Below, piece after piece: positions 14,641-22,728 of a stretch of DNA of 64,000 nucleotides (position 1 is its first letter; each line of letters begins with the position of its first letter). A program made the position numbers and the translations under genes. The notes beneath the pieces are model-generated. The model searched no databases, had not been told where the DNA came from, and saw only the letters and a list, made by a program, of their open reading frames with translations. Source of the DNA: Oleisolibacter albus (GTDB lineage: Bacteria; Pseudomonadota; Alphaproteobacteria; Azospirillales; Azospirillaceae); NCBI RefSeq assembly GCF_003336875.1, contig NZ_QGNJ01000002.1:1-64000 (forward strand), read 5' to 3'.

Positions 14641-14711
14641 GCGGCGGCTTGCCGCCAGCCCACAGCCCTGACAGACTGTCATCGTTGTGTCTTTCAGCCT
14701 GTGGTGGCGGT

Positions 14712-17375
14712 GTGGATCTTCTGCTCCTCCAGGCCGGTCTGGATGCCGTATCGGACGGGGTTGCCCTGTTCGATCCCGATGCGCGTCTGGTGCTGGCCAA
14801 TAGCCGGTTCTGCGCGCTTTTTCCCGGCAGCGCCGCATCCATCATGCCCGGCCAGACCTATGAGGTGCTGCTGCGGCGGGCGGTGGAGGCCGGTGACATC
14901 CTCTATCCCGTCGATCTGGACGCCGACGGTTATGTGCGGCAGCAGTTGGCAGGATTCCGCGCGCCGGGGCCACCGTTCGAATTCCGCCTGCGGGACGGCC
15001 GCATCATCCGCGGGCTGGACCGGCGCCAGTCCGATGGCAGCACCGTCTGTATCCGCAGCGATCTCAGCGCGCTGCGGCGCTGCGAACAGGGGCTGGCCGA
15101 TTCCGATGCCCGCCACCGCCAGCTGCTGGAGCTGTCGCCGGGTGGCATCATCATCCATGACCAGCGCGGGATCGGCCGCTTCATCAACCGGGCCGGGCGG
15201 CGCATGCTGGGTCTGGACGAGGCGGACAATATCGGCCGCCTGACCCTGCTGCATTTCACCCCGCCGGAAACCCGCCCGCTGGTGGAGGCGTTGCTGCGGC
15301 GGGTGCTGACCGGGGAGGTGATCCGGCAGCGCCGGCTGCCCATGCGCCGCCGGGACGGAACCGTCATCACGCTGGAGCTGTCCTTCGTTCCCTTCTTCGC
15401 CGAAGGGGAGCGGCAGGTTCTGGTGCTGTTCCTGGACATCACGGCGGAGACGGCGGCCCATCTGCGCCTGCGTGAAAGCGAAGCCAGGGCCCGCAGCATC
15501 CTGGACACGGCGCTGGATTGCATCGTCAGCATCGATGCCGACGGGCTGATCCAGGAGTTCAACCCGGCGGCCGAGCGTATTCTAGGGTGGCGCCGGGTCG
15601 AGGCCGTGGGCCGGTCCCTGGTGGCCCTGATCGCGCCGCCGGGGCAGGCGGCGGACCATGTGCTGTCGCCGGAGCGGCTGCGGTCCGATGATACGGTCCT
15701 GGGCCGCCGGGTCGAGCTGGAGGTGATGCACCGGGACGGTCACCGGCTGCCGGTCGAGCTGGCCGTCACCGCCGTGCCGCTGGGGCCGGGGCGGCGCTAC
15801 ACCGCCTATCTGCGCGATCTCAGCGAGGCCAAGCGCATCCGCCGCGAGGTGGAGGACAAGACGCGCATCCTGGAAGCGATGATGGAGAGCGTCGGCATCG
15901 GGATCGAGGTCTATGACGCCGAGGGACAATTGCTGCTGGCCAACCGCCGTCTGGCGGAGCTGCTGGATCTTCCGCCCGACATGCTGCGGCCCGGCATGCG
16001 CGACATCGAGGTGCTGCGCTGGCTGGCCGAGCATGGCGAATATCCCGGCGAGACCGTGGAGGAAAGCCTGGCCGACTATGACCGGCTGAAGCGCGCCGGT
16101 GTCTGTTTTTCCGAGCGGCGCCGGCCCACCGGCCAATGGCTGCAGGTCCGGCATTTTCCCATGGCCGGGGGCGGCTATGTCGCCCTGTTCGCCGACGTCA
16201 CCGAGCAGAAGGCGCTGGAGACCCAGTTGCAGCAATCCCAGAAGATGGAGGCGCTGGGGCAGCTGGCCGGGGGCATCGCCCATGATTTCAACAATCTGCT
16301 GTCCGTCATCGGCGGGTATGCCGGCATGGCCCGTCAGGCGGCGGGCGGTGACGGGCCGGTCCCCACCTATCTCGGCAAGATCCAGCGGGGGGTGGATCGG
16401 GCGGCGGCGCTGACCCGCGAATTGTTGGCCTTCTCGCGCCAGAAGGGGGGGCAGGCCCGGGTCGTCGATCTGGCCGCGGTGGTGCGCGACCAGGAATTCC
16501 TGCTGAAGCCGCTGCTGGGGGCCGGTATCCGCCTGACGGTGACCGTGCCCGCGCGGCCGGTCTGGGTGGCGGTCGATCCCGATCTGGCGGCACAGGCGCT
16601 GGTCAATCTGGCCATCAACGGCCGCGACGCCATGGCCGGGGATGGACCGCTGGCGGTGCGTCTGGAGATCGTCGGATCGGGGCCGCCGGGGCTGGAGGAC
16701 CGCACCTGCGCCCTGTTGGCGGTGGAGGATCGCGGCTGCGGCATGGATGAGGTGGTCAAGGCCCGGATCTTCGATCCCTTCTTCACCACCAAACCACCGG
16801 GCCAGGGGACCGGGCTGGGGCTGTCCATGGTCTATGGCGTGCTGAAGCAGGCCAACGGTGCCGTGACCGTGGAGAGCGCGCCGGGCACGGGCGCCTGTTT
16901 CCGCTTGTGGTTCCCGCTGGCGGCGGAACCGGATGCCGACCCGGCCGGGATCGCGCCGGAATCCGCCGGGATCGATGGCGGCGGTGCCTGCCTTCTGGTG
17001 GCCGAGGATGAACCCGATCTGCTGGAGATCATCCGGACCTGCCTGGAAGCGGCCGGATACCGCGTCCGCTGCGCCACCGACGGGGTGGAGGCACTGGAAC
17101 GGCTGGAGGAGGGCGGGGTCGATCTGCTGCTGAGCGATCTGGTCATGCCCAATCTGGGGGGCTTGCGCCTGACGCAACTGGTTCGGGAGCTCTATCCCGA
17201 CCTGCCGGTGGTGCTGATGACGGGCTATGCCGGCCGGAGCGGTGGTGGCGGACCGATTGACCTCCCGCAAAACGTGCCGATGATCTATAAACCCTTCGAG
17301 CCTTCCCATCTGTCGGAGCTCATCGCCCGGACCCTGGCCGGGCAGACGCCGTGCCGGACGGAGCCGCTTGCATGA
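14712..17375 (+). CDS. PAS-domain hybrid sensor histidine kinase
   Basis: A soluble sensor kinase of about 887 aa with no membrane segment. Several PAS domains occupy residues 1-500 (for example DAVSDGVALFDPDARLVLAN at the start and MMESVGIGIEVYDAEGQLLLAN near 395). The HisKA box MEALGQLAGGIAHDFNNLLS has phospho-acceptor His524 and is of the HDFNN class. A HATPase domain follows (LALVNLAINGRDAM, GTGLGLSMVYG). The C-terminal receiver has LLLSDLVMP with Asp809. The reading frame extends upstream to 14370 inside the previous gene. I chose GTG 14712 because the PAS homology begins there; TTG 14685 is an alternative, and neither has a clear ribosome-binding site. A response regulator overlaps its stop codon. 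Confidence 0.88.
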   Translation: MDLLLLQAGLDAVSDGVALFDPDARLVLANSRFCALFPGSAASIMPGQTYEVLLRRAVEAGDILYPVDLDADGYVRQQLAGFRAPGPPFEFRLRDGRIIRGLDRRQSDGSTVCIRSDLSALRRCEQGLADSDARHRQLLELSPGGIIIHDQRGIGRFINRAGRRMLGLDEADNIGRLTLLHFTPPETRPLVEALLRRVLTGEVIRQRRLPMRRRDGTVITLELSFVPFFAEGERQVLVLFLDITAETAAHLRLRESEARARSILDTALDCIVSIDADGLIQEFNPAAERILGWRRVEAVGRSLVALIAPPGQAADHVLSPERLRSDDTVLGRRVELEVMHRDGHRLPVELAVTAVPLGPGRRYTAYLRDLSEAKRIRREVEDKTRILEAMMESVGIGIEVYDAEGQLLLANRRLAELLDLPPDMLRPGMRDIEVLRWLAEHGEYPGETVEESLADYDRLKRAGVCFSERRRPTGQWLQVRHFPMAGGGYVALFADVTEQKALETQLQQSQKMEALGQLAGGIAHDFNNLLSVIGGYAGMARQAAGGDGPVPTYLGKIQRGVDRAAALTRELLAFSRQKGGQARVVDLAAVVRDQEFLLKPLLGAGIRLTVTVPARPVWVAVDPDLAAQALVNLAINGRDAMAGDGPLAVRLEIVGSGPPGLEDRTCALLAVEDRGCGMDEVVKARIFDPFFTTKPPGQGTGLGLSMVYGVLKQANGAVTVESAPGTGACFRLWFPLAAEPDADPAGIAPESAGIDGGGACLLVAEDEPDLLEIIRTCLEAAGYRVRCATDGVEALERLEEGGVDLLLSDLVMPNLGGLRLTQLVRELYPDLPVVLMTGYAGRSGGGGPIDLPQNVPMIYKPFEPSHLSELIARTLAGQTPCRTEPLA

Positions 17376-17806
17376 CCCGCCTTTACATTCCCGAAGATCC
17401 GATCCGCAGCCTGCGGGTCCTGGTCGTCGAGGATCAGATGCAGACCCGGGGCTGGATCGTCGACATGCTGCGGGTCATGGGCATCCGCGAGGTGCTGGCC
17501 GCGGCCGATGGCGTCGATGCGCTGCGCCTGGTCAAGGAACAGGTGCGCATGATCGATCTCATCATCTGTGACTGGGCCATGCCGCGCATGACGGGCATCG
17601 ATCTGCTGGCCGCGGTGCGTCAGATCGAGCCGGAGATGCCCTTCATCATGGAAACCGGACATGGCACCCGCGACCATGTCATGGCCGCGCGCCAGCACGG
17701 GGTGACCGCCTTCATCGTCAAGCCCTTCTCCGCCGCACAGCTGGAGGCGAAGGTCCGGATGGTGGCCAAGGGCCGCCCGCCGCGGATGATCGCCGGCTCC
17801 TACTGA
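17372..17806 (+). CDS. CheY-like single-domain response regulator
   Basis: A 144-aa receiver domain without an output domain. LRVLVVEDQ holds the acidic pair, LIICDWAMPRMTG has the phosphorylation site Asp67, and AFIVKPFS has the conserved Lys. ATG 17372 overlaps the TGA of the hybrid kinase (ATGA), implying translational coupling, so it is probably a downstream relay partner of that kinase. In the receiver the usual Thr/Ser-Gly motif appears as METGHG. Confidence 0.92.
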   Translation: MTRLYIPEDPIRSLRVLVVEDQMQTRGWIVDMLRVMGIREVLAAADGVDALRLVKEQVRMIDLIICDWAMPRMTGIDLLAAVRQIEPEMPFIMETGHGTRDHVMAARQHGVTAFIVKPFSAAQLEAKVRMVAKGRPPRMIAGSY

Positions 17807-18720: not shown

Positions 18721-19170
18721 TCAGTTGCCGGTGGGGACCCAGGGGATGCGGGCCACGGGCACGCCCTCGTCGCGCAGCCGCTCGGCCTCGTCGCTGCTGG
18801 TCTCACCATAGATGGCGCGGGCGTCCGTCTCGCCATAATGGATGCGCCGCGCTTCCTCGGCGAAGCGCTCGCCCACATAATCGGCGGACTCCTCGACCTT
18901 GCGGCGCAGTTCCCGCAGCTGCGTCAGGATCTCCGCCTGCTGTGCCTTGTCCCCGGCACCATCGCCGCCGCTGCCCGGGATGGCGGCCGCTGCCGGCTCG
19001 GGCCGGCCCTTGGCGATGCGCGGCGCCATCGGCGCCTTGTCGATGCCGCTGTCGCCGCAGACCGGGCAGGTGATGGCCTGCGCCGCCGCCTGGGCCTCAT
19101 AGGCCGCGCCATTGCGGAACCAGCCCTCGAAGCGGTGGCCATGGCTGCATTTCAGTTCAAACAGGATCAT
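18721..19170 (-). CDS. DUF1178 family protein with CxxC zinc site
   Basis: A 149-aa cytosolic protein beginning MILFELKCSHGHRFEGWF, the hallmark of DUF1178. One Cys is in KCSHGH and a CPVCG pair lies near residue 38, giving a probable rubredoxin-like zinc knuckle. The C-terminal half is charged and helical and ends VARIPWVPTGN, again typical. The family is widespread in alphaproteobacteria and of unknown function. The start at 19170 is fixed by the family N terminus. Confidence 0.9.
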   Translation of the reverse strand: MILFELKCSHGHRFEGWFRNGAAYEAQAAAQAITCPVCGDSGIDKAPMAPRIAKGRPEPAAAAIPGSGGDGAGDKAQQAEILTQLRELRRKVEESADYVGERFAEEARRIHYGETDARAIYGETSSDEAERLRDEGVPVARIPWVPTGN

Positions 19171-19287: not shown

Positions 19288-19890
19288 ATGACGCCAGCCG
19301 TTCCACCCGCGGTCCCGCATCCGCTGGCCGGCCCGCCCGCGGCCTGGGTGGCGCGCTTCGCGCCGCTGCTGCGGCCGGGTGGGACGGTGCTGGACCTGGC
19401 CTGCGGCGCCGGGCGGCATCTGCGCCTGTTCCGCGACCGCGGCCATCCCGTCACCGGTGTGGATCGGGATCTGCGGGGCGTGGCGGACCTGCGCGATCAG
19501 CCGATGGTCACGCTGGTCGAGGCGGATCTGGAGAACGGCAATCCCTGGCCGCTGACCGGGCGGTTCGCCGGCATCGTGGTGACCAATTACCTGTACCGTC
19601 CCCTGTTCCCGGCCCTGCTGGACAGTCTGGAGCCGGGGGGCGTGCTGCTGTACGAGACCTTCGCCCAGGGCAACCAGCGCTTCGGCCGGCCGTCCAGCCC
19701 GGCCTTCCTGTTGCGCAGCGGCGAGTTGCTGGACCTGGTCCGTGGCCGGCTCCAGGTCGTGGCCTATGAGCATGGCGAGGTCGCCAGCCCCAAGGCCGCC
19801 GTGGTCCAGCGTCTGTGCGCCGTGCAGGACCGGACGGCAGTGCCCGATCTCGGCGGGGATCCCGAACCGCGGCCGCTGCCGGCGGTCTGA
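19288..19890 (+). CDS. class I SAM-dependent methyltransferase
   Basis: A 200-aa Rossmann methyltransferase. Motif I is VLDLACGAGRHLRLF near residue 38, the acidic end of strand 2 is VTGVDRD, and TNYLYRPLFP near 100 takes the place of the catalytic loop, followed by LEPGGVLLYETF. It is similar to TehB-like small methyltransferases, whose substrate cannot be inferred. CAGGGA precedes ATG 19288. It ends 104 bp before the ethylene-receptor-like kinase, but the intervening DNA is AT-rich and likely holds a separate promoter. Confidence 0.88.
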   Translation: MTPAVPPAVPHPLAGPPAAWVARFAPLLRPGGTVLDLACGAGRHLRLFRDRGHPVTGVDRDLRGVADLRDQPMVTLVEADLENGNPWPLTGRFAGIVVTNYLYRPLFPALLDSLEPGGVLLYETFAQGNQRFGRPSSPAFLLRSGELLDLVRGRLQVVAYEHGEVASPKAAVVQRLCAVQDRTAVPDLGGDPEPRPLPAV

Positions 19891-19994
19891 GCCTGTCGTT
19901 GGATTGTTATAGTCCATATGGTTTGTTCGCCAGAACCATAAGAATGCATATAAACTCCCTGCCCGCCGGATAGGCGCCGGGAGGACAGGGAGAC
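19891..19994 (+). promoter_or_regulatory. AT-rich promoter region of the ethylene-type kinase
   Basis: Unusually AT-rich for this genome. TATGGTT (19917-19923) and AACCATA (19934-19940) form a 7-bp inverted repeat, and ATGCATATAAAC near 19944-19955 offers a -10-like TATAAA. An operator overlapping a promoter is plausible; no transcription start is proven. Confidence 0.4.
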
Positions 19995-21599
19995 ATGGAC
20001 GCTCTACGCTTCGTCATCGATCCGGCCCCCTTCATGCCGCATGGCATGTGCCTGCTGTGGGACCCGGTGCTGATCTGGCTGCATCTGCTGTCCGACGGTG
20101 CCATCGGGCTGGCCTATTTCTCCATTCCGGTGGCACTGGTGGTCTTCGCCCGCCGCCGCCGCGATCTGGCGTACAAATGGATGTTCCTGCTGTTCGGCGC
20201 CTTCATCTTCGCCTGCGGCACCACCCATTTCTTCGGGGCCTGGACCCTGTGGAACGCCAATTACGTGGCGGAGGGACTGGTGAAGGGCTTCACCGCCATC
20301 GTCTCCATCGCCACGGCCACCCTGCTGTGGCCGCTGATCCCCCGCGCCCTGGCGCTGCCCAGCCCGGCGGCCCTGCGCCAGGCCAATGCCGCCCTGTCGG
20401 CCCAGATCGCCGAACGCATCCGGGCCGAGGAGGATGTGCGCCACAGCAATGCCCGGCTGAACGAGGCCATCAAGGCGCTGCGGGCCAGCGAGGCGCGCTA
20501 CGCCGGCATCGTCAACAATGCGGCCGACGCCATTTTCGTGCTGGCGGTGGAGCCGGACGGCAGTCTGCGCTATGCGGCGGCCAACCCGGTGCTGCTGCGG
20601 CTGCTGGAGCGCGGCGAAAGCGGGGTCATCGGGGCGGTCCCAGGCGATATCCTGTCGGCGGAAGCCAGCGCCATGCTGGAGCGGCAGGCCGGCGCCGCCA
20701 TCCGCACCCGGGCGCCGGTGCAGTTCGAAACACAGGACGAGATATCGGGCCGGCGGCAGGTGTTCCAGACGCTGCTGGCCCCGGTGCTGGAGCCGGAAAG
20801 CGGTACCGTGGTGCAGATCATCGGCACCGTCCGCGATCTCACCGCCTATCGGGCGCTGCAGCAGGACCTGGCGCAGGCGGCCAAGCTGGCGACCCTGGGC
20901 ACCATGGCCGCCGGTGTCGCCCACGAGGTGAGCCAGCCGCTGAACGCCATCCGCATCACCGCCACCGACTGCGTCGAGGTGCTGGCCGAGACGGCGCCCG
21001 ACCTGGACTATGTCCGCGAGGGGCTGGTCACCATCCGCGACCAGTCGGCGCGCATGGGCGGCATCGTCGATCAGATGCGGCAGTTCGGCCGCCGCGAGAC
21101 GCGCGAACCGGCCGCTTTCGACCCGGCGGAGCCGGTGCGCCGGGCGGTGTCCCTGCTGGAGCGTTCCTTTGCCAGCGAGGATGTGGCGCTGACGCTGGCC
21201 ATGCCGGACAGCCTGCCCCCGGTGCAGGGTCAGCCCAACCGGCTGGAACAGGTGGTCATCAATCTGCTGACCAATGCCCGCGACGCCATTGGCGAGCGGC
21301 GGCAGGCCGATCCCGCCGCTCCCCCCGGACGCATCCATCTGTCCGCGGCGGCGGAGGGGGCGGCCGTGCGCATCCTGGTGGAAGACAACGGCACCGGACT
21401 GTCGCCGGAGGCGGCGGCCCATCTGTTCGATCCCTTTTTCACCACCAAGGATGGCGACAAGGGCATGGGGCTGGGTCTGTCGATCTGCGCCAGCATCATC
21501 GGCGGCATGGGGGGCCGGATCGAGGGCCACTCCCGGCCCGGCGGGGCCAGTTTCAGCATCACCCTGCCGCAGCGGCAGGACCCGGGAGGACATCCATGA
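19995..21599 (+). CDS. ethylene-receptor-like membrane histidine kinase
   Basis: A 534-aa kinase whose N terminus matches the copper-dependent ethylene-binding domain of plant ETR1. Three membrane helices lie at about 22-50, 62-82 and 92-112. Helix 1 has SDGAIGLAYFSIP and helix 2 has FIFACGTTHFFGAW. With a constant offset of nine, ETR1 Asp25, Tyr32, Ile35, Pro36, Ile62, Cys65 and His69 correspond to Asp34, Tyr41, Ile44, Pro45, Ile71, Cys74 and His78 here, all identical. A PAS domain (about 160-285), HisKA with His310 in VAHEVSQPLNAIRI and a HATPase (GLGLSICASIIGG) follow. A receiver gene overlaps the stop. Cu(I) and ethylene binding are inferred from homology. Confidence 0.9.
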   Translation: MDALRFVIDPAPFMPHGMCLLWDPVLIWLHLLSDGAIGLAYFSIPVALVVFARRRRDLAYKWMFLLFGAFIFACGTTHFFGAWTLWNANYVAEGLVKGFTAIVSIATATLLWPLIPRALALPSPAALRQANAALSAQIAERIRAEEDVRHSNARLNEAIKALRASEARYAGIVNNAADAIFVLAVEPDGSLRYAAANPVLLRLLERGESGVIGAVPGDILSAEASAMLERQAGAAIRTRAPVQFETQDEISGRRQVFQTLLAPVLEPESGTVVQIIGTVRDLTAYRALQQDLAQAAKLATLGTMAAGVAHEVSQPLNAIRITATDCVEVLAETAPDLDYVREGLVTIRDQSARMGGIVDQMRQFGRRETREPAAFDPAEPVRRAVSLLERSFASEDVALTLAMPDSLPPVQGQPNRLEQVVINLLTNARDAIGERRQADPAAPPGRIHLSAAAEGAAVRILVEDNGTGLSPEAAAHLFDPFFTTKDGDKGMGLGLSICASIIGGMGGRIEGHSRPGGASFSITLPQRQDPGGHP

Positions 21600-21988
21600 C
21601 GGAGGCGGCCATGACCGACACGGCACCCGTCCACCTGCTGCTGGTGGATGACGAAGCCATCAGCGCCCTGGCGCTCGAACGGTTCCTGAAGCGCCGGGGC
21701 TTCCGCGTCAGCCTGGCCCATGACGGGCTGCGGGCGCTGGAACTGGCCGAGGCCGATCCGCCGGCCCTGCTGGTCACCGACATGCGCATGCCCCGCCTTG
21801 GCGGCGCCGATCTGGTCCGCCGCCTGCGGACGGCCCGGCCCGACCTGCCCGTGGTGGTGGTCACCGGCTACATGTCCAGCGATCCCGAGGCGGAAGGATT
21901 GTCGGGACCAGGGACAACGGTCATGACCAAGCCCCTGGACCCCGAGGCGCTGCTGCGCACGGTGCGCGGCCTGCTGGGGATCGGTTGA
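21596..21988 (+). CDS. single-domain response regulator, partner of the ethylene-type kinase
   Basis: A 130-aa receiver only. LLLVDDEAIS holds the acidic pair, LLVTDMRMPRLGG the phospho-acceptor Asp62, VVTGYM the Thr and TVMTKPL the Lys. ATG 21596 overlaps the kinase TGA as ATGA, and GGGAGGA sits five bases upstream inside the kinase gene. With no output domain it must act through protein contacts. Confidence 0.92.
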   Translation: MTEAAMTDTAPVHLLLVDDEAISALALERFLKRRGFRVSLAHDGLRALELAEADPPALLVTDMRMPRLGGADLVRRLRTARPDLPVVVVTGYMSSDPEAEGLSGPGTTVMTKPLDPEALLRTVRGLLGIG

Positions 21989-22012: not shown

Positions 22013-22672
22013 TCACTGTGACCCGGCGGCAAGGCGGTCGCGCATCATCGTTACCCACAGCCGGCGCAGGGCCCGGTGCTCTGTGGCGCTGCCGCCGCCG
22101 GTGGCGACCTCCTGGATGGACATGCCGCGCAGCAGATAGACGCTCATGGTCATCAGCTCGCCCAGGCGGGCCGGGGACAGGTCGGTCTGCCCCAGCGAGG
22201 CGCCCCAGCTTTCGCCGACGGCGGCGATGAAGGCGCGGAACACGGGGGCCAGCCGGGATTGCAGGTCGGCGTCGGTACGGCAGGCCAGCGCCACCTCGAA
22301 CAGCACGTCGCGGTGGCGGCCCTGGTAGAAGCGCGACCAGGCCGCCTCCAGCAGCAGGTCCAGCCGGTCCTGGCCGGGGTCCGGCGCCATGGCCGCCACG
22401 CTGCGGGCGGCGGCGACGGACTGGAACAGCATGTCCTCCGCTGCCAGGGCCACCAGCTCGCCCTTGCTGGCGAAATGATGGGCCCAGGCCCCGCGGGACA
22501 CGCCGGCCCGGCCCAGGATGTCGGAGAGGGAGGCCCCGGCATACCCGTTGGCCGACAGGCTGTCGAGGGTGGCCTCCACCAGCCGCCGGCGCATGTCGCG
22601 CCGCCGCTGGTCCTGGGATCGCCGCTGCGGCCGCCCGGCGGCCTCCGACGGGGAAGGAGGGGTCTCGACCAT
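22013..22672 (-). CDS. TetR family transcriptional regulator
   Basis: A 219-aa regulator. After an Arg-rich start, the DNA-binding domain reads LVEATLDSLSANGYAGASL, then DILGRAGVSRGAWAHHF, a typical TetR helix-turn-helix, near residues 30-70. The C-terminal ligand domain is not assignable. It lies 56 bp downstream of ilvD on the same strand. ATG 22672 fits the domain best; the longer reading to 22855 runs into ilvD. Confidence 0.87.
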   Translation of the reverse strand: MVETPPSPSEAAGRPQRRSQDQRRRDMRRRLVEATLDSLSANGYAGASLSDILGRAGVSRGAWAHHFASKGELVALAAEDMLFQSVAAARSVAAMAPDPGQDRLDLLLEAAWSRFYQGRHRDVLFEVALACRTDADLQSRLAPVFRAFIAAVGESWGASLGQTDLSPARLGELMTMSVYLLRGMSIQEVATGGGSATEHRALRRLWVTMMRDRLAAGSQ

Positions 22673-22728
22673 TCCTGTTGCTAGGCCGGCCCGGCCCGAC
22701 GGGTCAAGGCCCGTCCGGCCCTTTCCGC

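Follow-up and report, generated by a model that had tools for sequence, protein, structure and literature searches.

The kinase and receiver genes

The window, i.e. the whole stretch of DNA analysed, comprises the first 64,000 nucleotides of contig NZ_QGNJ01000002.1 of Oleisolibacter albus. The locus of interest consists of a histidine kinase gene and a receiver gene with the following surroundings.

18721..19170, minus strand: putative DUF1178 gene, 149 aa, conserved outer neighbour
19291..19890, plus strand: methyltransferase gene (Methyltransf_23), start uncertain, conserved upstream neighbour
19879-19902: weak terminator-like stem
19995..21599, plus strand: ethylene-receptor histidine kinase, AzoEtr1 orthologue, 534 aa, ATG start (ORF, Pfam, kinase tree, motifs); residues 26-121 ETR1_N, 174-285 PAS_4, 301-369 HisKA with His310, 413-527 HATPase_c
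20070..20357, plus strand: ethylene-binding domain (EBD), three predicted membrane helices at residues 24-54, 58-83 and 90-111 (model, alignment)
21596..21988, plus strand: stand-alone receiver, AzoRR-etr1 orthologue, 130 aa, phospho-acceptor Asp62 by motif (ORF, Pfam, tree)
22013..22675, minus strand: TetR-family regulator (Pfam), downstream boundary, also adjoining the pair in genomes G066 and G055

The first of these genes is named as a putative DUF1178 member outside the Pfam matches. The stem may separate the methyltransferase gene from the kinase gene. The window holds another kinase-receiver pair at 14697-17806, in which a PAS-rich hybrid kinase gene precedes the gene of a stand-alone receiver; by ORF coordinates, the receiver ATG at 17372 overlaps the kinase stop.

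The draft genome (4.69 Mb, 44 contigs, completeness 100), in which a search for SSU rRNA gave no match, contains a single ETR1_N match, that of the window kinase. Its score of 133.8 bits (E 2.7e-39) against a cut-off of 27 is not a matter of chance. The protein combines this domain with PAS_4 (E 8.4e-10) and a complete histidine kinase, HisKA (E 9e-08) and HATPase_c (E 3.9e-23), as in the AzoEtr1 type. A GAF domain, which follows the membrane domain in the plant ETR1/SynEtr1 subtype, had no Pfam match at E 0.001, and PAS_4 is found there instead. The reading frame is intact, and the His box (His310) and the N, G1, F and G2 boxes are all present. These elements and the receiver residues presumably play the roles indicated by their motifs.

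The ATGA shared by the kinase stop and the receiver start was confirmed at 21596-21599. A second ATG at 21611 offers an alternative receiver start; the overlapping one is favoured because the overlap is conserved across the family, as judged from longest-ORF starts. Response_reg (E 2.9e-21) is the only Pfam domain of the receiver, in which the motif residues Asp18, Asp19, Asp62, Thr90 and Lys112 are present. The original prediction was thus right that the receiver has no output domain, which is also the published AzoEtr1/AzoRR-etr1 layout. It is encoded by a separate, overlapping gene and is not fused to the kinase as in hybrid EBD kinases. The pair is real, intact and ordinary in kind, namely of the AzoEtr1 type.

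A sigma-54 site has been proposed for AzoEtr1 in the paper describing it (PLoS Genet 2025, PMC11819568). Using one loose pattern, we found no such site upstream of the window kinase nor in eight of nine relatives, including Azospirillum brasilense (G005). The pattern may be too strict, since it misses A. brasilense as well. An inverted repeat at -78 of the window kinase has no same-sequence counterpart in the nine relatives scanned.

The binding pocket and orthology to AzoEtr1

The claim that all seven ETR1 pocket residues are matched at a constant offset of nine was borne out by alignment, with the numbering anchored on D, C and H. D34, Y41, I44, P45, I71, C74 and H78 of the window kinase correspond to ETR1 positions 25, 32, 35, 36, 62, 65 and 69, and they align with D35, Y42, I45, P46, I72, C75 and H79 of AzoEtr1. 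For the other four residues (Tyr32, Ile35, Pro36 and Ile62) the ETR1 numbers are those of the original prediction, and these positions were tied in by gapless alignment inside each helix. The equivalences D25=D35, C65=C75 and H69=H79 between ETR1 and AzoEtr1 are given in the AzoEtr1 paper (PMC11819568). K97 of the window kinase aligns with AzoEtr1 K98, the Lys linked to output. The window protein therefore has both the three-helix ETR1_N domain and the seven ethylene-binding residues.

A model of residues 1-139 based on a four-row alignment reached a mean pLDDT of 78, compared with 58-68 for four other models; a full-length kinase model made with no alignment (pLDDT 43) was too poor for use. 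Cys74 and His78 are four residues, or one turn, apart in modelled helix 58-83 and so would face the same side. No solved relatives were found by sequence, and none was significant by fold (best E 0.52).

AzoEtr1 of A. brasilense is described as a 525-aa protein with three helices and the order EBD-PAS-HK, the gene of which has a small overlap with that of a 135-aa receiver lacking an output motif (PMC11819568). Its residues 1-130 showed saturable 14C-ethylene binding, the D35A and C75A variants did not rescue biofilm formation, and ethylene responses down to 1 ppb were reported (PMC11819568). Its authors call it the first such receptor described in a proteobacterium (PMC11819568). In the literature that we searched, AzoEtr1 was likewise the only proteobacterial receptor found with demonstrated ethylene binding. 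A Komagataeibacter study (PMC4686702) reportedly deals with ethylene effects on an acetic acid bacterium.

We identified AzoEtr1 in genome G005 as a protein of 525 aa whose first residues are those encoded by the published primer, translated by hand. The window kinase is 56% identical to it in the ethylene-binding domain and 41% in the rest. A kinase tree of 52 rows was built from the proteins extracted, 28 of 63 from the family and 24 of 30 from the class, cut at 720 aa and rooted at the midpoint. The window kinase and AzoEtr1 fall together in one clade of 19 rows (support 100/100), apart from the remaining EBD kinases of the tree, which indicates common descent. Within this clade, the window kinase groups with that of G066 (100/98), then with those of G055 and G076, then with the presumed Skermanella group and finally with Azospirillum, including AzoEtr1. 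The window pair is thus an orthologue of AzoEtr1/AzoRR-etr1 and not a new kind of system. The original prediction, in which AzoEtr1 went unmentioned, overstated the novelty, and its observation itself holds. The receptor type was already known; what is new here is the history of the locus and the receiver subfamily.

Distribution, locus history and the receiver subfamily

Within the family, 62 of 82 genomes have ETR1_N, among them the window genome; in a sample of 385 genomes from the class it was found in 28. The complete seven-residue pocket is conserved in 62 of the 63 family domains examined (64 found), and in 20 of the 29 examined among the 33 found elsewhere in the class. Since the other nine of these 29 have at least one of the seven residues different or unaligned (two of them by Ile to Val alone), the fold by itself is no guarantee of ethylene binding. 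The copper-binding Cys of ETR1_N is replaced by G, G, T, Y and R in L175, L176, L182, L183 and L082, respectively, and these domains are perhaps not ethylene binders.

We searched the interval from 60 bases upstream to 400 bases downstream of the kinase stop for the start of receiver-like ORFs of 90 aa or more (E no higher than 1e-5). They flank 51 of 63 family kinases and none of the other 12. Forty-nine of these 51 are more closely related to the window receiver (E below 1e-25), and all but one of the 49 overlap the kinase gene when the longest ORF start is used. The overlap is of 4 nt in the window, G066, G055 and G076, and mostly of 8 nt in Azospirillum.

Other arrangements of the domain were encountered. 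In genus g11 it is carried by a longer protein at seven loci (L122, L129, L130, L132, L137, L140 and L143); ATGA occurs at the stop in all seven, and the next ORF has no or only a weak receiver match. At L130, the only g11 locus scanned, the domain is borne by a HisKA_2 kinase. L158, L161 and L165 (in G140, G213 and G316) are ORFs of 138-142 aa with little beyond the ethylene-binding domain, possibly coding for stand-alone binding proteins. Outside the family, G325 has an overlapping receiver of another kind.

The gene order DUF1178, methyltransferase, kinase, receiver is shared by the window, G066, G055 and the five genomes G077-G081 of the presumed Skermanella group. G076 has DUF1178, kinase and receiver, with no methyltransferase match. 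The TetR gene follows the pair in the window, G066 and G055. ETR1_N was not detected in nine of the 11 genomes belonging to the window's genus; these nine all have the methyltransferase gene. As measured from aligned ends, it is separated from the TetR gene by ~60 bp in G068 (L149) and ~113 bp in G075 (L156); these short gaps are best read as traces of the loss of the pair. The gap is ~1.3 kb in G071, and in the stretch read of the other six genomes, two of which are on short contigs, no TetR match was detected near the methyltransferase gene.

In an ilvD tree of 20 rows, eight of the nine receptor-less genomes form a clade (100/99); the ninth, G072, is missing from it as its sequence was not extracted. 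The clade excludes the window genome and G066, which lie in an open fork with genus g11, and a single loss at its base therefore suffices. The pair has other neighbours in A. brasilense, so it must have moved at least once. We infer this order of gain and loss from parsimony only. Horizontal gain in the window's lineage was also considered, and it is not favoured given the same locus order in the Skermanella group and G055.

To look at the output side, the window receiver was used as a query in 19 hand-picked genomes of the 82 in the family. In each of the eight receptor-bearing genomes the best match scores at least 99.6 bits; in the 11 receptor-less ones (of 20 in the family) it does not exceed 63.5 bits. 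In a receiver tree of 112 columns, whose finer forks are weak, 16 receivers form one clade (100/96), ten of them kinase-linked, including that of the window, plus six others. None of the best receivers of the 11 receptor-less genomes falls inside it. The subfamily is thus present in eight of eight receptor-bearing and none of 11 receptor-less genomes searched, which represent few independent cases because nine of the 11 belong to one genus.

Six of the eight receptor-bearing genomes have further matches, ten in all, scoring 79-103 bits; G055 and G076 have none. We inspected the neighbours of six of these ten matches. Receivers L309, L310, L311, L312, L313 and L314 are stand-alone members of the ethylene-partner subfamily that are found, among the 19 genomes searched, in receptor-bearing ones only. 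The paralogue of the window genome is the following.

G000:C43:159613-159951: stand-alone receiver L312

The extra receivers of G066 and G077 adjoin a PAS kinase with a LOV-like motif, and a receiver. That of G078 adjoins an MHYT-PAS kinase, MHYT being a possible copper or gas sensor, and it falls among the ethylene-linked receivers with weak support (88/58). A MerR gene lies near the extra receiver in both the window genome and G066. In the former, a HisKA_2 kinase gene is located ~1.2 kb downstream of L312 in the same orientation; a TPR-like ORF lies between them on the opposite strand. No kinase match was found within 1.5 kb of the extra receivers of G033 and G005. L312 groups with LOV-linked receivers in the larger tree versus Azospirillum partner receivers in the smaller one, and the window genome has no close counterpart of the LOV kinase (the best match reaching the PAS region is 33% identical).

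These associations suggest that a common set of receivers may take signals from several sensors. On a more tentative and rather doubtful view, the ethylene receptor would be one input of a network, in which EBD, light (LOV-like) and gas/copper (MHYT) kinases would share a receiver subfamily that persists only where the ethylene receptor does and that leads to a single common output, for example attachment or cyclic-di-GMP. The subfamily in any case provides concrete candidates for the output of the ethylene system.

Probable ethylene sensing and comparison with known systems

The pair very likely constitutes a two-component ethylene-sensing system of the AzoEtr1/AzoRR-etr1 type. By analogy with AzoEtr1 and ETR1, ethylene would be held by the N-terminal three-helix membrane domain through Cu(I) on Cys74 and His78. 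Its binding would lower autophosphorylation of His310 through the PAS linker, as is also predicted for AzoEtr1. Without ethylene, the kinase would phosphorylate Asp62 of the co-translated receiver, as the overlap and the intact motifs suggest. Having no output domain, the receiver would act by target binding or as a phosphorelay step. The claim that the organism senses ethylene is strongly supported by orthology to the ethylene-binding AzoEtr1, not by the pocket alone, and it is probably correct. Affinity and signalling direction may differ from those of AzoEtr1, given identities of 56% in the domain and 41% in the rest, and the PAS domain may respond to a different signal.

The membrane domain might instead bind Cu(I) to sense copper, redox state or another small gas, with ethylene binding being incidental. 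The pocket is indeed a copper site in ETR1 (PMC11819568), the host has no known plant contact, the orthologue also occurs in G076 (possibly Rhodospirillum centenum), and one receiver paralogue adjoins an MHYT-domain kinase. Nevertheless, all seven residues and the output-linked Lys are kept, the orthologue AzoEtr1 binds ethylene, with responses down to 1 ppb (PMC11819568), and microbes and photochemistry also supply ethylene in soil and water, which makes this reading unlikely. That the receptor is a relic that no longer signals and is under loss in the window's lineage could be argued from the absence of ETR1_N in nine of 11 genomes of the genus, the window genome being among the 11. We regard this as very improbable, as the pocket, kinase boxes, receiver residues, overlap and reading frame are all intact. 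Finally, the receiver might have split off from an EBD-PAS-HK-REC hybrid and hand its phosphate to an Hpt protein. Five of the ten EBD kinases scanned do have a fused receiver, all five outside the 19-row clade, but the fused receivers compared score at most 39 bits, versus 79 for an orphan receiver of the same genome, and the partner receivers form their own clade. Such a route is improbable, and we rejected a hybrid origin of the receiver because the receivers fused to EBD hybrids are no closer to it in score than unrelated ones.

A two-component ethylene-sensing system thus being the preferred reading, its link with plants deserves comment. Azospirillum, of the same family, is plant-associated, and putative receptors are reported in many plant-associated proteobacteria (PMC11819568). 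The suggestion that the window organism is plant-associated found no direct support. No nifH was detected in its genome above the cut-off (best 35.6 bits against 394, with equally weak matches in 14 of 14 controls). Reaction-centre genes gave no match in it and are present in eight of the 11 genomes of the genus. G076, which carries an orthologue, is possibly R. centenum, the sequenced strain of which came from hot spring mud (PMC2890560). Ethylene in soil and water is described as also coming from microbes and photochemistry (PMC11819568). Altogether, the data suggest that the AzoEtr1 system is old and largely inherited in this family, including in lineages with no demonstrated plant link, so that ethylene sensing may originally have served a purpose other than contact with plants. 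Within the window's genus, genomes that have the pair at this locus can be compared naturally with genomes that lack it.

Among known systems, AzoEtr1/AzoRR-etr1 is the closest: it matches the window pair in its domain order (EBD-PAS-HisKA-HATPase), in its pocket and in having an overlapping receiver with no output domain, is of similar length and falls in the same clade. It differs in its 8-nt overlap, compared with 4 nt in the window, and in its location on a plasmid with other neighbours (PMC11819568). Other alphaproteobacteria have hybrid EBD-PAS-HK-REC kinases, for example on a plasmid of Rhodovastum atsumiense; these share the membrane domain and kinase type, but their receiver is fused, not separate. 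Plant ETR1 shares the ethylene-binding domain with the seven residues; it carries a GAF domain and a fused receiver, both absent from the window kinase. Unlike the window system, plant receptors are reported to signal to a Ser/Thr kinase, mainly independently of His kinase activity (PMC11819568). SynEtr1 (Slr1212) of Synechocystis likewise has a bacterial ethylene-binding domain feeding a His-Asp pathway. However, it is described as also sensing light through a GAF domain and as signalling to Slr1213 and a small RNA, whereas the window kinase has PAS_4 and an output-less receiver.
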